Assembly (NCBI RefSeq): GCF_000737515.1
Contig: NZ_CP006587.1
Location: 4,335,001 to 4,399,000 of the forward strand
DNA from: Hymenobacter sp. APR13
GTDB taxonomy: Bacteria > Bacteroidota > Bacteroidia > Cytophagales > Hymenobacteraceae
DNA: 64,000 nt
Direction: 5' to 3'
The notes beneath the pieces were generated by a model, which worked only from the letters and a program-made list of their open reading frames with translations, did not search any database and had not been told where the DNA came from. The position numbers were made by a program, and so were the translations under genes. Shown here piece by piece: positions 30,279-58,085 of this stretch (positions are counted from its first letter, which is position 1; the number at the start of each line of letters is the position of its first letter).

Positions 30279-30314
30279 CAAGAAGCCCCCGACGCTACCG
30301 CGCCGGGGCTTTTT
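30279..30314 (+). terminator. Hairpin terminator before icmF
   Basis: AAGCCCC...GGGGCTTTTTG forms a stem with a T-run. It lies immediately upstream of the icmF promoter box. Confidence 0.85.
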
Positions 30315-30317
30315 GCG

Positions 30318-30325
30318 TACCTTCG
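30318..30325 (+). promoter_or_regulatory. -7-like box (TACCTTCG) of icmF
   Basis: TACCTTCG lies 33 bp before the ATG at 30358, another TAnnTTCG variant. Confidence 0.5.
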
Positions 30326-30357
30326 CTACCCCAAATTCCACCCAACATCTCCGCGCT

Positions 30358-33300
30358 ATGCAAGCTGCTCCTGCTGCTCCTTATAAGCCCCAGAACCACA
30401 TCCGCATCGTCACGGCCGCCGCGCTGTTCGACGGGCACGACGCTGCTATCAACATCATGCGCCGCATCATCCAGAGCAGCGGCGCCGAAGTGATTCACTT
30501 GGGCCACAACCGCTCGGTGCAGGAAATCGTGGACTGCGCCATTCAGGAAGATGCCCAGGCCATTGCCATTACCAGCTACCAGGGCGGCCACAACGAGTAC
30601 TTCAAGTACATGCACGACCTGCTCAAGGAGCGGGGTGCGGGCCACATCCGCCTGTTTGGCGGCGGTGGCGGCGTGATTCTGCCCACCGAAATCGAGGACC
30701 TGCACGCCTACGGCATCGAACAGATCTACTCCCCCGACGCCGGCCGCGCCATGGGCCTGCAGGGCATGATCAACGACTTGCTCCAGCGCTGCGACTTCCC
30801 CACCGGCCAGAACCTGAACGGCGAAGTAAAGCACCTCAAGGAGAAAGACGCCCGCAGCATCGGCCGCCTGATCTCCGCCGCCGAAAACTTCCCCGAGGAG
30901 TTCGAGAAGGTGCGTCAGCAGCTTGTTGCTGACTTCCAGAAGACGGACAGCAGCCAGAACGACATAAGCACGAAGCCCCAGGCCCCAGGCACTAAACCAA
31001 CCCCCATTCTCGGCATCACCGGCACCGGCGGCGCTGGTAAATCTTCCCTTGTGGATGAGCTGGTGCGGCGCTTCCTGATGGACTTCCCCGAGAAGACCAT
31101 TGCCATCATCTCCGTCGACCCCAGCAAGCGCAAGACTGGCGGGGCCCTCCTGGGTGACCGGATCCGGATGAACTCCATCAACTCGCCGCGCGTGTACATG
31201 CGCAGCCTGGCCACGCGCCAGAGCAACCTGGCCCTGAGCAAGTACGTGCAGGACGCCGTGGACGTGGTGCGCGCCGCCGAGTTCGACCTCATCATCCTCG
31301 AAACCTCCGGCATCGGGCAGTCTGACACCGAAATCATCGAGCACTCCGACGCCAGCCTCTATGTGATGACGCCCGAGTACGGCGCTGCCACCCAGCTGGA
31401 GAAGATCGACATGCTCGACTTCGCCGACGTCATTGCCCTCAACAAGTTCGACAAGCGCGGCGCCCTCGACGCCCTGCGCGACGTGCGCAAGCAGTACCAG
31501 CGCAACCACGGCCACTGGGACAAACCGCTCGACGATATGCCGGTGTTCGGCACCATCGCCTCGCAGTTCAACGACCCGGGCATGAACCGCCTGTACCGCG
31601 CCATCCTGAGCACCGTAGAAGCCAAGACAGGCGTGCCCTTCGCCTCGCAGCTGGCCACCAGCAAGGAGGACTCCGAGAAGATTTACATCATCCCGCCGCA
31701 CCGCACGCGTTACCTTTCTGAAATCGCCGAAACCAACCGCCAATATGACCAGTGGGTTCAAAAACAAGCTGACGTTGCTCAACAGCTCTATGGCATCCGA
31801 CAAGCCGTCGGAGCCGTCCAAAGTCTCGCAGGAAACCCCGCTGGCGGACCTGGCAGCGGGAACGGCAGCCACCAACCCGAGCCCGGAACACTCGTGGCCG
31901 GCCTGGAGAGCACCTTCGAGGAGGTCAAACTCCGGCTGGACGGGCAGAACTGGAAACTCCTGGAAACCTGGCCGGCAAAAGTAGCCGCCTACAAGGCCCC
32001 GGAGTTCGTGTTCAAGGTGCGCGATAAGGAAATCCGCATCCAGACCCACACCACCAGCCTCTCCAACCAGCAGATTCCCAAAGTCAGCCTGCCGCGCTAC
32101 ACCGCCTGGGGCGACTTGCTGCGCTGGCAGCTGCAGGAAAACGTGCCCGGCGAGTTCCCGTACACCGCCGGCGTGTTTCCGTTTAAGCGCGAGGGCGAAG
32201 ACCCGACGCGTATGTTTGCCGGCGAAGGCGGCCCCGAGCGCACCAACCGCCGCTTCCACTACGTGAGCATGGGCCTGCCTGCCAAGCGCCTGAGCACGGC
32301 CTTCGACTCGGTGACGCTCTACGGCGAAGACCCCGACGTGCGGCCCGACATCTACGGCAAAATCGGCAACGCCGGCGTGAGCATCGCCTGCCTCGACGAC
32401 GCCAAGAAGCTCTACTCGGGCTTCAACCTGGCCAACCCCAGCACCTCGGTGTCGATGACCATCAACGGCCCCGCCGCCACGCTGGCCGCCTTCTTCATGA
32501 ACGCCGCCATCGACCAGCAGTGCGAGCTGTACATCAAGGAGCAGGGCCTGGAAGACGAGGTAAACCAGAAAATCGACGCTCTCTACCAGGGCCAGACCCG
32601 CCCCCGCTACCAGGGCGAGCTGCCCGCCGGCAACGACGGCCTGGGCCTCATGCTGCTCGGCGTCACCGGCGACCAGGTGCTGCCCGCCGACGTGTACGAA
32701 ACCATCAAGAAGCGCACCCTGAGCCAGGTGCGCGGCACCGTGCAGGCCGACATCCTCAAGGAAGACCAGGCCCAGAACACCTGCATCTTCAGCACCGAGT
32801 TTGCCCTGCGCCTGATGGGCGACGTGCAGGAATACTTCATCAAGGAGAAGGTTCGCAACTTCTACTCGGTGTCGATTTCCGGCTACCACATTGCTGAGGC
32901 CGGCGCCAACCCGCTCACCCAGCTGGCCCTCACCCTCAGTAACGGCTTCACCTTCGTGGAATACTATGTGAGCCGGGGCATGAGCGTGAACGACTTCGCT
33001 CCCAACCTCTCGTTCTTCTTCTCCAACGGCATCGACCCCGAGTACGCCGTGATTGGCCGCGTGGCGCGCCGCATCTGGGCCAAGGCCATGAAGCTGAAGT
33101 ACGGTGCCGACGCCCGGAGCCAGATGCTCAAGTATCACATCCAGACCAGCGGCCGCAGCCTGCACGCCCAGGAAATCGACTTCAACGATATCCGCACCAC
33201 CCTGCAGGCCCTCTACGCCATCTACGACAACTGCAACTCCCTGCACACCAACGCCTACGACGAGGCCATCACGACGCCCACCGAGGAATCGGTGCGCCGG

Positions 33301-33831
33301 GCCATGGCCATCCAGCTCATCATCAACCGGGAGCTGGGCTTAGCCAAAAACGAAAACCCGCTGCAAGGCTCCTTCATCATCGAGGAGCTCACCGACCTGG
33401 TGGAAGAGGCCGTATTGCTGGAGTTTGACCGCATCACGGAGCGCGGCGGCGTGCTGGGCGCCATGGAAACCATGTACCAGCGCGGCAAGATTCAGGAGGA
33501 AAGCATGCACTACGAGATGCTCAAGCACACGGGCGAGTACCCCATCATCGGCGTGAACACCTTCCTCTCCTCCAAAGGCTCGCCCACGGTGGTGCCCGCG
33601 GAGGTCATCCGCGCCACCGACGAGGAAAAGCAGTACCAGATTGAGATGCTCAACCTCCTGCACACCCGCAACGCCGACCAGACCGAAGCGCGCCTCAAGC
33701 AGCTTCAGCAAGTTGCCATTGCCAACGGTAACCTCTTCGCCGAACTGATGGAAACGGTGAAGTTCTGCTCACTCGGGCAGATTACGAATGCCCTGTTCGA
33801 GGTTGGCGGGCAGTATCGTCGAAATATGTAA
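30358..33831 (+). CDS. icmF: Fused isobutyryl-CoA mutase (IcmF)
   Basis: The 1157-residue, single-chain, B12-dependent acyl-CoA mutase has its G-protein chaperone built in. The order is: B12-binding domain (residues 1-140; FDGHDAA with the lower cobalt ligand His27); a linker; a MeaB-like GTPase (about 215-470, [12 protein letters not shown] at 220 and NKFD for guanine); and a mutase TIM barrel (about 520-1157, with [40 protein letters not shown] and [14 protein letters not shown]). This is the IcmF architecture, which interconverts isobutyryl- and butyryl-CoA or related pairs, and not classical methylmalonyl-CoA mutase. A low-complexity Gly/Pro/Ser linker (about residues 488-505) separates the G domain and the mutase. 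It is monocistronic. Confidence 0.95.
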
Positions 33832-33863: not shown

Positions 33864-34457
33864 ATGAAAATTAGCCTCAAATCATTGTCAACATTAAGTT
33901 TCGTAATTGGGTTTTTCATTCACATAGCTTATTTCTTTTTCATTGAACAAACAATTAATAGAACTCTATATAATTTTTATACTTTTATTGGTGGATATAT
34001 ATCAGTAGTCGGTATAATTTTCGCACTTGTACAAATAAAATCCGTTAGAGAAGAGGCTGAGTCTATTAGAAATTCAGTTTCTAAATACAATAATATTTTG
34101 ACACTAGTAGAGATTACAAATTTGTCAAATTACTTATTAGAAGCGCGTAATTATATTCTAATGAAAGATTTTAAGACAGTACATCAAAAGCTTACATATG
34201 TAAAACCAGGTGTAAACACTTTATTAAACAGGGTTAATAAACAGAAAATCATTATTGAACAGGAGGAAGACGCACCTGAATTAAAAGATTTGATTTTTAA
34301 TTTTAAACAGGATCTACAGAACATAGAAGTAAGTATCTTAAACAATGACAACTTTGAAAGTATAGATTTTGGCATTGTCTTACGTCATACAGACGAAATG
34401 GCAACTTACTTTTCCAACTTAACAGAACATCTAAAGTCTTTTGAGCATGAATCTTGA
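33864..34457 (+). CDS. AT-rich gene: membrane-anchored helical protein, unknown
   Basis: The 197-residue protein is encoded by markedly AT-rich DNA (about one third G+C by eye, against about 60-65% around it), so it was probably acquired. Two hydrophobic helices (about residues 11-29 and 38-57) are followed by a cytoplasmic helical part with coiled-coil character (VREEAESIRNSVSKYNNILTLVEITNLSNYLL, shortened in function). No catalytic motif is seen. The next gene overlaps its end by 11 bp, so the two form one translationally coupled pair. The architecture (two membrane helices plus a soluble sensor or effector part) recalls membrane effectors of defence systems, but that is inference. Confidence 0.75.
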   Translation: MKISLKSLSTLSFVIGFFIHIAYFFFIEQTINRTLYNFYTFIGGYISVVGIIFALVQIKSVREEAESIRNSVSKYNNILTLVEITNLSNYLLEARNYILMKDFKTVHQKLTYVKPGVNTLLNRVNKQKIIIEQEEDAPELKDLIFNFKQDLQNIEVSILNNDNFESIDFGIVLRHTDEMATYFSNLTEHLKSFEHES

Positions 34458-34824
34458 CAATGTGATTACGATTCTGGATCAACTCGTCCGGAAAACTAGG
34501 GAAGAGAAAATAACTTGGGAGAAAACTAGTAAGGCAAAATCGTATAAAGCTTCATTATTAAAGGGGATTTTTATAGTTGAACGAAATCCTCTGCCTCTGC
34601 CCACAATGTCTAGTGTAGGAATGCCGGTTAAAGTTTCATACACTTTTCAGATTTTTGACACCAATGGCGAGAAAATATATAGCAAATCCACAGGCAATAA
34701 TGGACTAGCTCCTTCACCATCTTCGTTAAATATAAATAAAATGGTATTAAGTTTATTCGATGCTATCGAAGATGCGAATGGCAACAGTTTAAAAGACATC
34801 ATGAATGAATTAATTAATTTATAA
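34447..34824 (+). CDS. AT-rich gene: small soluble partner protein, unknown
   Basis: The 125-residue protein starts at ATG 34447, inside the last 11 bp of the preceding gene. It is soluble, with an N-terminal helix (NLDNVITILDQLVRKTREEKI), a beta-rich middle (WEKTSKAKSYKASLLKGIFIVER; VSYTFQIFDTNGEKIYS) and a C-terminal helix (MVLSLFDAIEDANGNSLKDIMNELI). The WEKTS...YKASL core looks like a small conserved fold that I have seen in unannotated proteins but cannot name. Its base composition matches its partner and not the chromosome. Coupling suggests that the two products act together. Confidence 0.7.
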   Translation: MNLDNVITILDQLVRKTREEKITWEKTSKAKSYKASLLKGIFIVERNPLPLPTMSSVGMPVKVSYTFQIFDTNGEKIYSKSTGNNGLAPSPSSLNINKMVLSLFDAIEDANGNSLKDIMNELINL

Positions 34825-34831
34825 CCCTTAT

Positions 34832-34955
34832 CTGGCGCGGGTTTAGGCGTAGCCGTAACTCGTGACCAACCTTGAGGTAGAGGTTATGCCTCCACTGCCG
34901 CAATGCGGCAAATACGAACCGCGCCGCTTGGAGAAATTCGGGCGGCGCGGTGCAT
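34832..34955 (+). repeat. Structured dispersed element, copy 1 of 2
   Basis: This 124-bp sequence is about 70-75% identical (by eye) to 37285-37410 in the same orientation. It can fold into three hairpins: 34845-34854 with 34882-34891; GCCGC/GCGGC at 34897-34901 with 34905-34909; and ACCGCGCCGC/GCGGCGCGGT at 34918-34927 with 34942-34951. Differences between the copies preserve pairing in hairpins 1 and 3. It begins 8 bp after the AT-rich pair ends. Confidence 0.85.
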
Positions 34956-34981
34956 TTGTATCGAATCATATCAGCACCCAC

Positions 34982-35018
34982 AAAAAAACCGGCCCGCTCT
35001 TACGAGTGGGCCGGTTTT
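34982..35018 (-). terminator. Terminator of the 35034-35708 gene
   Basis: AAAACCGGCCC...GGGCCGGTTTT forms a stem (with an internal G/T bulge) with an A-run upstream that reads as U on the minus strand. Confidence 0.9.
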
Positions 35019-35033
35019 CATTTCAATCAACCT

Positions 35034-35708
35034 CTACGCCTCCGTGGCTTTGTCTTTTCCGCCCGTCGTTACCAGCTTGCGGGCCTGGGTGTAGCCTTTA
35101 TACAGCTCCCGGTCCAGCAGTTTAAAGGCTTTCATGTCGGCGTCCAGCTGGCGCACCTCGTCCATCAGGGCATCCACCAGCTCTTCCAGCGCGGCCCCGG
35201 CCACCACCCGCTCGTTGATGGTTTTGCGCGTGGCAGGCTGGGCCGTTTTGAAGGTGGCCAGCGCGTCGCGCAGCGGCTGCAGGGCTTTGGCCGTAAGGCC
35301 CTGTTTGGCTAGCTCCGGCACCACGTCGGGGCGGGCGGCACTGGCCAGCACTGCCTCTGCCACCGCCGCGAAGGCCAGGGGCCGCAACTTCCGCAGCTGC
35401 TTGCTGCTAAGCGTGGCCGAGGCCAACAGGTCATTGTCCTGGAGGCGGGTGGCAATGCGGCTGAGCGGGCCCAGCAGAGCCGGCAGCAGTTCCAGCAGCG
35501 TCTTTTTGGCTGTTTTGGCGTCCTCCGTCAGATTTTTTGTGCGCTTGGTGGTACCGGCCCGGGCGCCATCCACCTGCGCGTAGTGCTCGGCTACCTCGTC
35601 GGCCTGCTCGGCTGCCACCTCGCTGGCCGCCAGCGCTTCCTTGTTTTCCGTTACAAAATCCACCACCTGCCCACACATCACTAACTGGTCTTCTCTTGCC
35701 TTATCCAT
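35034..35708 (-). CDS. All-helical protein of unknown function downstream of array B
   Basis: A 224-residue, Ala/Leu/Lys-rich, entirely helical protein with no signal peptide or membrane segment. It looks like tandem helical bundles: TKRTKNLTEDAKTAKKTLLELLPALLGPLSRIA in the middle and ALEELVDALMDEVRQLDADMKAFKLLDRELYKGYTQARKL near the end (both shortened here in meaning). I start it at ATG 35708. The frame stays open upstream through array B to 36164, where it would encode Cys/Phe/Arg heptads (CFALVRR type), but the ATG and the change in composition argue against translation of that part. The family is unknown; the association with array B may be meaningful. Confidence 0.7.
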   Translation of the reverse strand: MDKAREDQLVMCGQVVDFVTENKEALAASEVAAEQADEVAEHYAQVDGARAGTTKRTKNLTEDAKTAKKTLLELLPALLGPLSRIATRLQDNDLLASATLSSKQLRKLRPLAFAAVAEAVLASAARPDVVPELAKQGLTAKALQPLRDALATFKTAQPATRKTINERVVAGAALEELVDALMDEVRQLDADMKAFKLLDRELYKGYTQARKLVTTGGKDKATEA

Positions 35709-35826
35709 AGAACTATATACATAGCAGAACCGCTCTGCCTGGCGTGATAAGCCCTTGCTTACCGAAACCAATGTATCCGAATTACCCAACAATACCAACC
35801 ACCCAAAACCACTCCTATCCTTCCGA

Positions 35827-36078
35827 AAACACCTTCTAAGCAAAGCAAAACACCCTCTGACTAAGACGAAACACCTCCCGACCAAAGCGAAACACTCTCT
35901 GCCTAATCGAAAACACCTCCCGAGCGATACAAAACACCTCCTGACTAGAGCGCAACACCCTCTGAGTGAAGCAAAACACGTCCTGACTACCCGTAAACAC
36001 CTCCCATCAAACGCGTAACACGTCCCAACTAAAGCAAAACACCTCCTGCCTAAGGCGCAACACCCTGTCTTCCTCTTG
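35827..36078. repeat. Array B: twelve 21-bp degenerate tandem repeats
   Basis: Twelve units start at 35827 and every 21 bp to 36058 with no phase change. The consensus core is AAACACCTCCTGACTAAAGC plus one variable base, and a decayed unit lies just before (35806). The block CACC..C.T.A aligns with the core of array A when the units are rotated. The array fills most of the 499-bp space between the divergent genes at 35708 and 36208; no other gene is seen there. Confidence 0.92.
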
Positions 36079-36207
36079 AACCTGCCCATAGGCAAGCAAT
36101 GGCTTCCTACCATCTGATTACACGGTGTAGTAAGAAACTGAGGCCCGCCCGCCCGAACTTTCACCCCGGCCCCGGGTTAGCAGCCTGAAACTTCTCCTTG
36201 CTGCTTC

Positions 36208-36393
36208 ATGGCCCGGCGCAACTCTCCCAACGATATCCGGCAGTTCGCCGACCTGAACCAACTCAGCGAAATTGTGGTGGATAAGCGGCTGGGCAAGCGG
36301 GCCGAGGCCAAAAAGAGCCGACGCAACCGGCACTACGAAAAGCAGTTCATCAAAAATGCGCTTACGGCCCGCCTCAGCAGCGACGAAAGCTGA
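36208..36393 (+). CDS. Small basic protein of unknown function
   Basis: A 61-residue, strongly basic protein (MARRNSPNDIRQFADLNQLS at the N-terminus, then KRLGKRAEAKKSRRNRHYEKQF). It has an ATG start, a clear TGA stop and normal codon use. The charge pattern would suit nucleic-acid or ribosome binding, but no family is recognised. It follows array B and precedes the metallo-hydrolase gene by 99 bp. Moderate confidence that it is real; the function is unknown. Confidence 0.6.
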   Translation: MARRNSPNDIRQFADLNQLSEIVVDKRLGKRAEAKKSRRNRHYEKQFIKNALTARLSSDES

Positions 36394-36492
36394 GCCGTCG
36401 ACGTACTGACCAGCAATGAGTCTGGCTCGAATCCGCTGGTCTTCCCCACTTACGTACCCTCTCCTGTTCCCTTTCACCCAACAACAAACCCG

Positions 36493-37272
36493 ATGAAATC
36501 CACCCTTATCCTTGCGGCTGCTCTGGCGGCGGTTACTACGCTGGCGCAGGCCCAAACCGCCCCCGCGCCGCGGGCGGCCGCCGACCAGATTGCCACCAAG
36601 AAAGGCCCGCTCACGGTGCAGCCTATCACCCACGGCAGCGTGGTATTTACCTGGAACGGCAAGACCATTTACGTGGACCCCTACGGCGGAGCCGCCGCCT
36701 ACGCCGGCCTGGCCGCCCCCGATGTTATCCTCATCACCGACATTCACGGCGACCACCTCGACCCCAAGACGCTGGCGGGTCTCTCCGTGGGCAAGGCCCT
36801 GATGATCGTGCCCCAGGCCGTGGCCGATAAGCTGCCCGCCGAGTACAAAGCCCAGGTCCGCGTGCTGGGCAATGGGCAGCGGCTCGATACGCTGGGCATG
36901 AGTGTTTCGGCCATTCCGATGTACAACCTGCCCGAAGCAGCCGACGCGCCGCACACCAAAGGCCGGGGCAACGGCTACGTGCTGAACCTGGGCGGCAAGA
37001 ACGTGTACCTGTCCGGCGACACCGAAGACATTGCCGAAATGCGCGCCCTCAAGAGCATCGACGTGGCTTTTGTGTGCATGAACCTGCCCTATACGATGGA
37101 TGTACAGCAGGCTGCGCAGGGGGTATTAGCCTTCAAGCCCGGCATTGTGTATCCGTATCACTACCGGGGCCAAAACGGCCTGAGCGACGTGGCCGGGTTC
37201 AAGAAAACCGTAAATACGGCCAACAAAAAAATTGACGTCCGGCTGCGCAACTGGTATCCGGCGGCCCAGTAA
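36493..37272 (+). CDS. Exported MBL-fold metallo-hydrolase (UlaG-like)
   Basis: The 259-residue protein has a signal peptide (cleaved near AQAQT, residue 18) and a metallo-beta-lactamase fold: ITHGSVVFTWNGKTIYVDPYGG, then ILITDIHGDHLDP (the zinc-binding HxxxDH-like motif, here HGDHLD), GNGYVLNLGGKNVYLSGDTEDI (third metal ligand region) and PYHYRGQNG (last His). It belongs to the UlaG/DUF-type branch often annotated simply as MBL fold hydrolase; the substrate cannot be told. The periplasmic location is unusual for UlaG-like enzymes but common in Bacteroidota. Confidence 0.9.
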   Translation: MKSTLILAAALAAVTTLAQAQTAPAPRAAADQIATKKGPLTVQPITHGSVVFTWNGKTIYVDPYGGAAAYAGLAAPDVILITDIHGDHLDPKTLAGLSVGKALMIVPQAVADKLPAEYKAQVRVLGNGQRLDTLGMSVSAIPMYNLPEAADAPHTKGRGNGYVLNLGGKNVYLSGDTEDIAEMRALKSIDVAFVCMNLPYTMDVQQAAQGVLAFKPGIVYPYHYRGQNGLSDVAGFKKTVNTANKKIDVRLRNWYPAAQ

Positions 37273-37284
37273 ATCAACTCCGAA

Positions 37285-37410
37285 CTGGCGCGCGCTTAAG
37301 TGCAGCCATAACTCGTGCCGACCATAACGTGTAGGCTGCGCCTCCACTGCCGCGCCAGCGGCAAACCCGGAACCGCGCCATCTGGAGAAGTCCGGGTGGC
37401 GCGGTTCTGG
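37285..37410 (+). repeat. Structured dispersed element, copy 2 of 2
   Basis: Same orientation as 34832-34955. The hairpins are 37298-37307 with 37334-37343; 37349-37353 with 37358-37362; and AACCGCGCCA/TGGCGCGGTT at 37371-37380 with 37397-37406. In hairpin 3 a G-C pair of copy 1 is replaced by A-T, and in hairpin 1 a T-A pair is replaced by C-G. The remaining 215 bp before the next gene hold no evident feature. Confidence 0.85.
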
Positions 37411-37625
37411 TTTTCAGCGGATTCGAATAGCGGTTGGGAGCAGTTGTTCGAGCGGAGCAGGCGCAGTCTTCCGGCAGGGCTGGTCAGGAGGTACTGCTGC
37501 GCCTAAATGCGCGCCAGTACGCAACCGGTTGGACACAACAAGTAAGCAGTAGCGGCGTTGCTGGCGGAAAAAGCGCAACCAATACTTTAGTAGTACCCTG
37601 CATCCTGCGTTTTTCCAGCCTGCTC

Positions 37626-56365: not shown

Positions 56366-57931
56366 ATGCGTACTTATACCCTATCCGGCGCGGTGCTGGC
56401 GGCCTTGCTACTGGCGGCCTGCCAGCGCCAGCCCGACGAACAACCCACTCCCCAGCTGGAAGCCGAGCCCACCGAGGCCCTCACCACCCAGCAGCTCGAC
56501 GACCAGATCATGGCGCGGCTGCGTGAAACAGGTAAGTTCGACTGGAACCAAGCCAGCGCCCACACCGTGTGGAGCGCCCTGCGCCGCTCCGACTATGTGC
56601 TGTCGGTGGGCTACCAGCCGGCGCGCTTCTCGGGGCAGCTGCCCGCTGATGCAGCCGGCAGCCCGGCCTGGTAGCAAGCCCGCGCACAGGTGCTGGCCCT
56701 GATTCTGGCTGAAGAGCAGAAAACCCACCCCGGCCTCACGGCCGCCGACTTGGTGGCCTACGATGAAAGCGTGCTGCCCGTGCTGGACGTGACCGTGCGC
56801 GAGCTGAGCACGATTAAGGCGCTACGGGCCTCCGGGCTGGTGCGCTACGCCGAGCCCATGGGCTACGAGCCCAACCGCCCCGAGGCCAGCCGCACCGAGT
56901 CGGTGCTGAGCAGCAGCGGCTGCGGCAGCAACACGGCCACCGCCGGCCTCGTAGCCGGCGCCGACTTCACAGTACTCAGCAATGGCAGCAAGTCGTCGTG
57001 GAACCAAGCCGACCAGTACCACGGCGTGCGCACGGCCTGGAACCAGAGCACCGGCCGGGGCGTGAAGGTGGTCATCATCGACTCGGGCTCGTCGGATGCG
57101 CAGGAAAACCTGGGCTCGGCCTTCAACCAGGGCCTGAGCTCGGGCCGCACCATTGAGCGCCTCGTGACTATGCCCCGCAACACCATTTTCGGCATCCCGT
57201 ACGGCGACGCCGAAACGCCCAACGACGGCTGCGGCCACGGCACCAGCATGGCTGGCGCCTGCGCCGCCCCCCGCGGCACCGACGGCGCCGCCGTGGGTAT
57301 GGCCTACAATGCCAGCCTGATTACGGTGCGCGCCGCCGAGGACGTGTTTCTGGACGCCAGCCGCGAAGTGAAGGGCGTTTCCGACGCCTTCATTCTGGCC
57401 GGCAACCGCGCCGACGTGCGCATCATCAGCATGAGCATGGGCCGCCTGACCAGCTCCTCGCAGATGACCGACGCCATCCGCTACGCCTATGGCCGCGGCA
57501 AGCTCATCTTCTGCGCCGCCGGCACGTCCTTCGACTGGAGCGCGGGGCTGGTAGGCGTCATCTACCCGGCCTCCCTGCCCGAAGCCGTGGCCGTAACGGG
57601 CGTGAAAGACAACCTCACCACCCGCTGCGACGAGTGCCACGTGGGCTCCGACGTGGAGTTTACGGTAGTGATGCAGCGCACCAGCGTCGACCGGCGGCCG
57701 CTCACGCTGGCCATGTCCGGCGACGCGCCCAGCACCGTAGGTGGCTCTAGCGTAGCCACGGCCAGCATGGCCGGCCTCACGGCCCTGGTGTGGGCCCGCT
57801 ACCCCACAGAAACCCGCGCCCAGATCATGAGCCGGCTGGTGGCAGCCAGCTCCAACCGCAGCGCCCGCAGCAGCAGCTTCGGCTGGGGCCGCGTAAACGT
57901 GGCTACGGCCGTGGGCGGGTTAGTCAATTAG
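56366..57931 (+). pseudogene. S8 subtilisin-like lipoprotein protease interrupted by an amber codon
   Basis: A single frame of 521 codons is broken by one in-frame TAG at 56672-56674 (position 103), between Trp and Gln codons. The first part is a lipoprotein signal (LLLAAC) and a propeptide-like segment. After the stop the same frame continues with an intact S8 domain: Asp239 in VVIIDSGSSD, His291 in CGHGTSMAG and Ser462 in GGSSVATASMAG. The single-base change, with the rest undamaged, suggests a recent mutation (CAG to TAG is one transition), a sequencing error or suppression. If read through, it would be a 521-residue secreted protease; if not, restart downstream would yield an enzyme lacking its signal. 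Confidence 0.85.
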
Positions 57932-58085
57932 TAATTAAGAATTAGTAATTAAAAATGGGCCGTTCAACGACTTCACAACGAAGCGTTGAACGGCCTATTA
58001 TCTTACTCAAAAATGGGCTGTTCAACGACTTCATGACGAAGCGTTGAACAGCCCATTTTTAATTACTAATTCTTAATTACTAATT
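57926..58085. repeat. Nested palindrome: heptamer arms around two terminator hairpins
   Basis: The left arm starts with four 7-bp units AATTAGT, AATTAAG, AATTAGT, AATTAAA (57926-57953). The right arm to 58085 is its near-exact complement; about 35 bp match perfectly and the pairing continues with one or two mismatches to about 47 bp. Inside are two tandem hairpins with arms GTTCAACG/CGTTGAAC (about 57956-57997 and 58013-58054), one pointing at each convergent gene. The outer heptamers touch both stop codons. Confidence 0.9.

Follow-up and report, generated by a model that had tools for sequence, protein, structure and literature searches.

Introduction

A 64,000-nucleotide stretch of the genome of Hymenobacter sp. 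APR13 (contig NZ_CP006587.1, positions 4,335,001 to 4,399,000; hereafter the window) contains two similar hairpin-forming sequences, copy 1 at 34832-34955 and copy 2 at 37285-37410, and raises the question of what kind of element has left two such copies at one locus. We consider it very likely that the two sequences are relics of a non-autonomous, REPIN-like family of repeats that occurs in Hymenobacter and allied genera and is tied to a REP-associated tyrosine transposase (RAYT) of a type found in Bacteroidota. The following sections describe the repeat unit and its partner enzyme, the place of both in the genome, the evidence for folding, and the alternatives that have to be weighed.

The Repeat Unit and Its Distribution

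The coordinates, orientation and similarity given in an original prediction, which was made from the window alone, are correct: the copies form a direct-orientation repeat of three ungapped blocks with 75-83% identity, in which 95 of 126 ungapped positions agree, and a whole-genome search with copy 2 as the query recovers copy 1 with an E-value of 7e-16. The prediction had also counted three hairpins and taken the two stretches for the whole element. There are in fact four hairpins (H1, H2, H3, and a long GC-rich H4), and both stretches represent only the left half of a larger unit with inverted hairpin ends. Copy 2 runs on to 37517, where an inverted H1 closes the unit, while copy 1 consists of the left half only, the right half and the right terminal repeat being absent. 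The parts of the two copies are as follows.

34832..34955, plus strand: copy 1, left half of the unit (H1, H2, H3, H4)
34836..34864, plus strand: H1 of copy 1, terminal hairpin with a 2x2 internal loop
34877..34895, plus strand: H2 of copy 1, with one mismatch
34896..34910, plus strand: H3 of copy 1
34918..34951, plus strand: H4 of copy 1, a GC-rich hairpin of 15 pairs followed by a T-rich tail and resembling a terminator
37285..37517, plus strand: copy 2, complete 233-bp unit with inverted terminal repeats at its ends
37289..37317, plus strand: left H1 of copy 2, decayed, with three broken pairs
37329..37347, plus strand: H2 of copy 2, with one mismatch
37348..37363, plus strand: H3 of copy 2
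37372..37405, plus strand: H4 of copy 2, GC-rich, compared below with like hairpins behind the hydrolase gene in eight other genomes
37472..37517, minus strand: right terminal repeat of copy 2, an inverted H1

Only five places in the window genome match the repeat core, two of them weakly. Further copies in related genomes, which the original prediction had proposed to look for, are widespread: among 120 genomes of the genus, the copy 1 query matches 85 and the copy 2 query 73, and an 80-nt core consensus matches 106 of 204 genomes of the taxonomic family, comprising 89 of the 120 in the genus and 17 of the 84 outside it. Seven candidates per genome were scored in the genus searches, and copy numbers are accordingly lower bounds.

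Facing H1 ends form 66 pairs in the fetched loci. Sound ends and a length of 165-235 bp were the basis for keeping 58 of them as units; the other eight were nested, had odd ends or fell outside that range. The units kept are 169-233 bp long and still include two overlapping pairs (L006 and L104). Each unit consists of two inverted copies of the 33-nt imperfect hairpin H1 enclosing further hairpins and therefore holds two inverted REP-like palindromes, the arrangement that characterizes a REPIN. The unit ends are ACTGGCGCGAGTTTAGGCGCAGCCGTAACTCGTG and its inverse, and the interior contains H2, H3, a variable middle (with the GC-rich H4 in some units), and one more hairpin, H2 and H3 being present on both sides in some units. 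Full-length units listed for three genomes number at least 17 in G072, at least 17 in G073, and at least 21 in G009. In three other genera (g3, g4, and g5), H1 alone is shared with the Hymenobacter units; the inner hairpins differ within the same unit plan, and the units listed span 121-288 bp.

The Partner Enzyme

Between or beside the units lies a protein of 182 aa that contains HUH and tyrosine motifs. It matches the NCBIfam model for REP-associated tyrosine transposases with 90 bits (cut-off 80) and the IS200 model with 20.4 bits, far under the cut-off of 55, and its motifs are NHAH, WQ, Y[LV]H[RQ]NP, and SSA. A sequence search of the PDB with this RAYT gave no significant match.

Thirty RAYT loci of the genus were fetched, RAYTs of 44-49% identity being left out. 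H1 lies within 100 bp of the gene in all 13 intact loci with at least 76% identity, on both sides in 8 of them, and these 13 loci have the RAYT flanked by its own repeats that defines a REPtron, an arrangement absent from the window genome. None of the remaining 17 loci (50-58% identity, or fragments of 71 and 80%) has an H1 scoring at least 8.5 bits, one fragment showing an 8-bit trace. Outside the genus, 30 loci from 13 of 17 genomes were compared. Two of these, at 85-86% identity, belong to the sister genus g6, and both have H1; in the others, H1 accompanies three of eight RAYTs at 59-67% identity and, at 10 bits or more, none of the 20 below 59%. RAYTs at or below 59% are flanked on both sides by similar stretches, inverted or direct, in 28 of 33 loci selected from 80, and these stretches differ from H1 where they were inspected. 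Overall, RAYT and repeat go together by subgroup, and parts of the published work on REPtrons already describe such pairing (PMC6006769; PMC2817692; PMC8266576). The window genome has no cognate RAYT, and none of its three Y1-like genes has an H1 nearby.

Two observations on other RAYTs may be added. Those at L210, L217, and L241 (Pontibacter and Marinoscillum) have paired hairpins with the motif GGATTTG(T/C)AATCC at their flanks, and two other RAYT loci of the unit-rich genomes G009, G072, and G073 (L134 and L145) are not flanked by H1.

The Home Locus Downstream of icmF

Of the 13 genomes that carry an intact cognate RAYT, all but G098 have the gene 0.8-3.6 kb downstream of icmF (12 of 13), and RAYT fragments follow icmF in five more (G026, G027, G061, G094, and G106). 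Downstream regions were available for 110 of the 116 genomes with an icmF match (109 and the window genome), six having been left out because of contig edges or partial matches; five of the 110 are short. Of these regions, 69 contain the repeat, namely 16 of the 17 with a RAYT match and 53 without, compared with a chance expectation of 2-8% of regions under an assumed 17-60 copies per genome. The distances between RAYTs correlate with those between icmF genes (r 0.74 over 12 genomes, reached in 0 of 2000 permutations), as for a gene inherited in place, and RAYTs are described as single-copy and vertically inherited in the part of PMC8049555 that concerns them.

The window genome is one of the 53 with the repeat and without a RAYT match, and its locus contains the following neighbors.

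30313..33831, plus strand: icmF (fused isobutyryl-CoA mutase), on whose 3' side the family's transposase gene is usually found
33864..34824, plus strand: AT-rich island with two open reading frames (ORFs), a stretch of variable cargo that separates icmF from copy 1
36493..37272, plus strand: metallo-hydrolase (beta-lactamase fold) gene directly before copy 2

Copy 1 starts 7 nt past the last ORF of the island (stop at 34824) and copy 2 starts 12 nt past the hydrolase stop (37272), in agreement with the placement of the copies after the island and after the hydrolase gene in the original prediction. Genome G081 has the copy 1 stretch at the matching place, and the match (34830-35416, 87%) extends into the neighboring gene; because it is continuous from copy 1 into that gene, copy 1 is inherited and not a fresh insertion. 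Copies 1 and 2 are most likely a ghost REPtron, situated at the home locus of the family, where a RAYT gene would formerly have stood.

Two ORFs at this locus have features of their own. The 197-aa product of the island ORF 33864-34457 has six entries, including itself, among 5.8 billion proteins, one of them from Hymenobacter humi. The minus-strand ORF 35034-36164 carries about eleven imperfect 21-bp tandem repeats in its N-terminal part (35826-36064).

The ghost REPtron has a fair rival, which concerns this part of the interpretation only: the 3' side of icmF may be a general hotspot for insertions. The two copies would then be passengers of the hotspot, with repeat, RAYT, and cargo landing independently and with no former REPtron, which would be compatible with everything else described here. 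The region is AT-rich and hypervariable, which fits such a hotspot: it has a median GC content of 0.42 and 309 ORFs of at least 80 aa in 203 clusters, 156 of them singletons (109 regions, counted in all six frames, some ORFs being spurious). In addition, displaced icmF 3' ends 0.4-2 kb downstream in 16 of the 110 regions look as if cargo had entered at the gene end. The correlation of RAYT with icmF distances and the intact RAYT after icmF in nearly all genomes that have one are, however, what in-place inheritance would leave, and we regard independent landing as unlikely. In G081 and G022, the match to the window picks up again after unrelated cargo at most two bases from the left end of copy 1, and in G021 and G063 it does so 12 and 24 bases before it. 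The H1/RAYT system could also have a part in the turnover of genes behind icmF: structured repeats left by a resident single-strand transposase would mark or create the boundary for swaps of unrelated AT-rich cargo, and the REPtron would anchor a genus-wide hotspot. This is a tentative idea to which we give little credence.

Folding and Covariation

The original prediction based its case for a folded strand on compensatory changes between the two copies. With the family fold, 11 of 40 pairs differ between them. The claim stands for the last hairpin, H4, in which all four changed pairs remain paired, one having changed on both sides (G-C to A-T). It does not stand for hairpin 1, in which three of four changed pairs are broken in copy 2 and the pairing originally given could not be reproduced. 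Of the three changed pairs in H2, two are disrupted in one of the copies. Within the window, then, decay is under way in H1 of copy 2, and H4 is the sole hairpin whose changed pairs have all been retained; with one pair changed on both sides, the two copies by themselves are weak evidence for folding.

The wider family provides better evidence. In 37 left halves, 91.7% of cells are paired and 17 are changed on both sides, compared with 6.0 in shuffles; in 32 half units, 97.8% are paired and 17 are changed on both sides, compared with 4.7. For both alignments, none of 500 shuffles reaches the observed percentage paired or the observed number of cells changed on both sides, in tests that are inflated by kinship and that use a structure derived from the very sequences tested. 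Pair 8-30 of H1 differs between genera: among 33 sequences from the genus and the sister genus it is G-C in 28, and among 21 from other genera it is A-T in 15. The G.T wobble 6-32 is retained in 31 of the former and 20 of the latter; this comparison covers distinct sequences with the long form of H1, the apical part being fixed by the search pattern. Covariation over many copies thus supports selection on a folded single strand, as originally proposed.

H4 Behind the Hydrolase Gene

Inspection by eye of 30 loci behind the hydrolase stop, drawn from 89 genomes with a match, showed a unit or left half in 8, a hairpin only in 5, and something else in 17. The units or left halves are those of G000, G005, G075, and G037, and of G017, G112, G015, and G050, where they are decayed or follow an older terminator; only the GC-rich hairpin and a T run are found in G110, G051, G041, G063, and G021. 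Nine of these 13 hairpins, excluding G017, G112, G015, and G050, have 96% of cells paired, and one pair is A-U in five genomes and G-C in four. The percentage paired is reached by 2 of 500 shuffles, and the numbers of cells, pairs, and pair types by 30, 122, and 494, respectively. A terminator scan lists H4 of copy 1 and not that of copy 2, its total being 7 against a shuffle mean of 6.2. H4 behind the hydrolase gene has perhaps been kept as a transcription terminator, and the short traces at the hairpin-only loci suggest that these may once have held whole units.

Elsewhere in the window, at 57926-58085, two 54-bp hairpin copies, 87% alike and spaced 58 bp apart, also form a 74-nt inverted repeat; they are perhaps double terminators or another repeat family.

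Proposed Mechanism and Alternative Explanations

By analogy with RAYT/REP and IS200/IS605 systems, we propose that the units move by way of single-stranded DNA. When a unit is single-stranded, the cognate HUH-tyrosine transposase would bind its folded H1 ends, cut and rejoin the strand, and so copy or move the unit without target duplication. H1 would be selected as a protein-binding single-strand fold, which is the proposed reason for its covariation. The RAYT gene, bracketed by units as a REPtron, has its fixed home downstream of icmF; in the window genome it would have gone from that home, leaving two copies that now decay, with the probable exception of H4 behind the hydrolase gene. Direct repeats of at least 4 nt flank none of the 58 units, and matches of 2-3 nt are near the shuffle level, which supports joining without target duplication. 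The left flanks have C at -5 in 71% and A at -1 in 71% of units, and CCCC occurs within 9 nt on the left side of 17 of 58 units and on the right side of 2; this bias may be a target preference.

Several observations weigh against a RAYT-dependent repeat family. Five of the eight RAYTs at 59-67% identity in other genera have no clear H1, and no RAYT remnant was found in the window genome. G009, G072, and G073, with all their full units, have no cognate RAYT in the assembly, and RAYT and copy number are therefore not simply coupled. The 5' GT[AG]G tag of canonical REPs is absent from the foot of H1, whose flanks in the genus are, by eye, ACTGG and GTGACC; H2 does start with GTGG, but inside its stem, and this is not so in the units of other genera. 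No movement was seen, the empty-site comparison of G073 with G072 being unreadable because of repetitive flanks, and the fetched loci contain no usable empty site, the sole candidate being a locus set against other records of its own place. The counts of pairs and pair types are weaker than the other covariation measures, being reached by 39 and 20 of 500 shuffles with the 37 sequences and by 14 and 14 with the 32 half units. Unguided RNAalifold on the 37 sequences gives 22 pairs, none in H2, with a covariation term of -1.1 kcal/mol. Finally, a general hotspot for insertions after icmF may lie behind the home locus.

Two quite different explanations of the repeat itself have to be considered. 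A conserved cis-regulatory or non-coding RNA at gene ends, such as a riboswitch-like or terminator family of no mobile origin, would explain why the hairpins covary, why units lie close to the next ORF 3' end (median 25 nt over 46 distances to crude ORFs), and why H4 alone, with its A-U to G-C switches, is left behind the hydrolase gene in five genomes. The 5'-end distances are, however, hardly longer (median 39.5 nt, 50 distances), 9 of 58 units lie within a crude ORF, and the units have inverted ends and occur in both orientations relative to the nearest gene end (14 same and 17 opposite within 100 nt). Moreover, an Rfam search of the whole window gave no match at the gathering score, and one RAYT subgroup is specifically bracketed by the repeat. 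A plain regulatory RNA was set aside for its orientation in both directions, the lack of an Rfam match, and the RAYT bracketing, and we hold it to be highly improbable. A classical miniature inverted-repeat transposable element (MITE), mobilized by a DDE transposase acting in trans, would likewise be short and non-autonomous with terminal inverted repeats, and the suggestion of a MITE in the original prediction was right as to a mobile, MITE-like appearance. Its usual enzyme is, however, not the one found here: the co-located protein is of the HUH-Y1 kind, although no search was made for DDE elements sharing these ends. The ends are hairpins with conserved irregularities, and target duplication is lacking. 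On these three grounds the classical MITE was also set aside, and we give it scarcely any chance. RAYT-dependent, REPIN-like repeats remain our preferred explanation of both copies.

Comparison With Known Systems

The nearest known systems are REPINs and BIMEs. As far as the relevant parts of PMC3116915 and PMC8266576 describe them, they resemble the present family in having a unit of two inverted imperfect hairpins, many copies, a cognate RAYT nearby, and singlet or half remnants. Unlike them, the units here are 169-233 bp long with up to six hairpins by eye, and H1 bears no 5' GT[AG]G tag. In H1, moreover, a G.T wobble is conserved and the internal loop is 2x2, whereas E. coli REP has a bulge instead. 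The IS200/IS605 family is similar in its related HUH-Y1 enzyme, its subterminal hairpins, and the lack of target duplication, but the RAYT falls far below the IS200 cut-off and the repeats here are without a gene. TIRtrons (TIRYT) are similar in that a Y1 transposase gene lies between long inverted repeats that in some cases occur elsewhere in the genome as well; in the portion of PMC3733652 on these repeats, many contain GGGGWSAS, whereas the H1 ends hold no GGGG. According to the classification in PMC6006769, as far as consulted, 20 of 26 TIRYTs belong to subclass 2.1 and have helix-turn-helix tails.

The RAYT/REP papers drawn on here focus on Proteobacteria and on GTAG-tagged repeats, and this family is a counterpart in Bacteroidota. 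Its recognition hairpin has no tag, it comes with a cognate enzyme and a fixed home locus, and the enzyme is missing from many genomes; H4, in addition, looks like a repeat hairpin that has survived as a terminator. Repeat recognition by this group of RAYTs and the fate of repeats after loss of the enzyme thereby become directly testable.

Among transposases, the RAYT appears to resemble those of subclass 2.6 (Bertels group 5) of the TnpAREP proteins, which are likewise from Bacteroidetes and have atypical, genome-repeated flanking hairpins. Table 1 of PMC6006769 gives for this subclass the pattern NH[LIV]H, WQ, YIH[QN]NP, and an SS tail, with atypical repeats without GTAG and a length of about 179 aa (published median 179, compared with 182 aa here); in this comparison of motifs, the two sets are close and not letter-identical. 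The remark in the original prediction that no described element could be recognized is right for the family, since literature searches found no description of this H1 repeat family, and not for its kind, which is in print. Overall, the REPIN/REPtron kind is already known and this family appears to be new within it: in the sections of PMC6006769 on subclass 2.6 no repeat consensus is given, whereas here the unit, its ends, its cross-genus conservation, and its home locus are described for one family.

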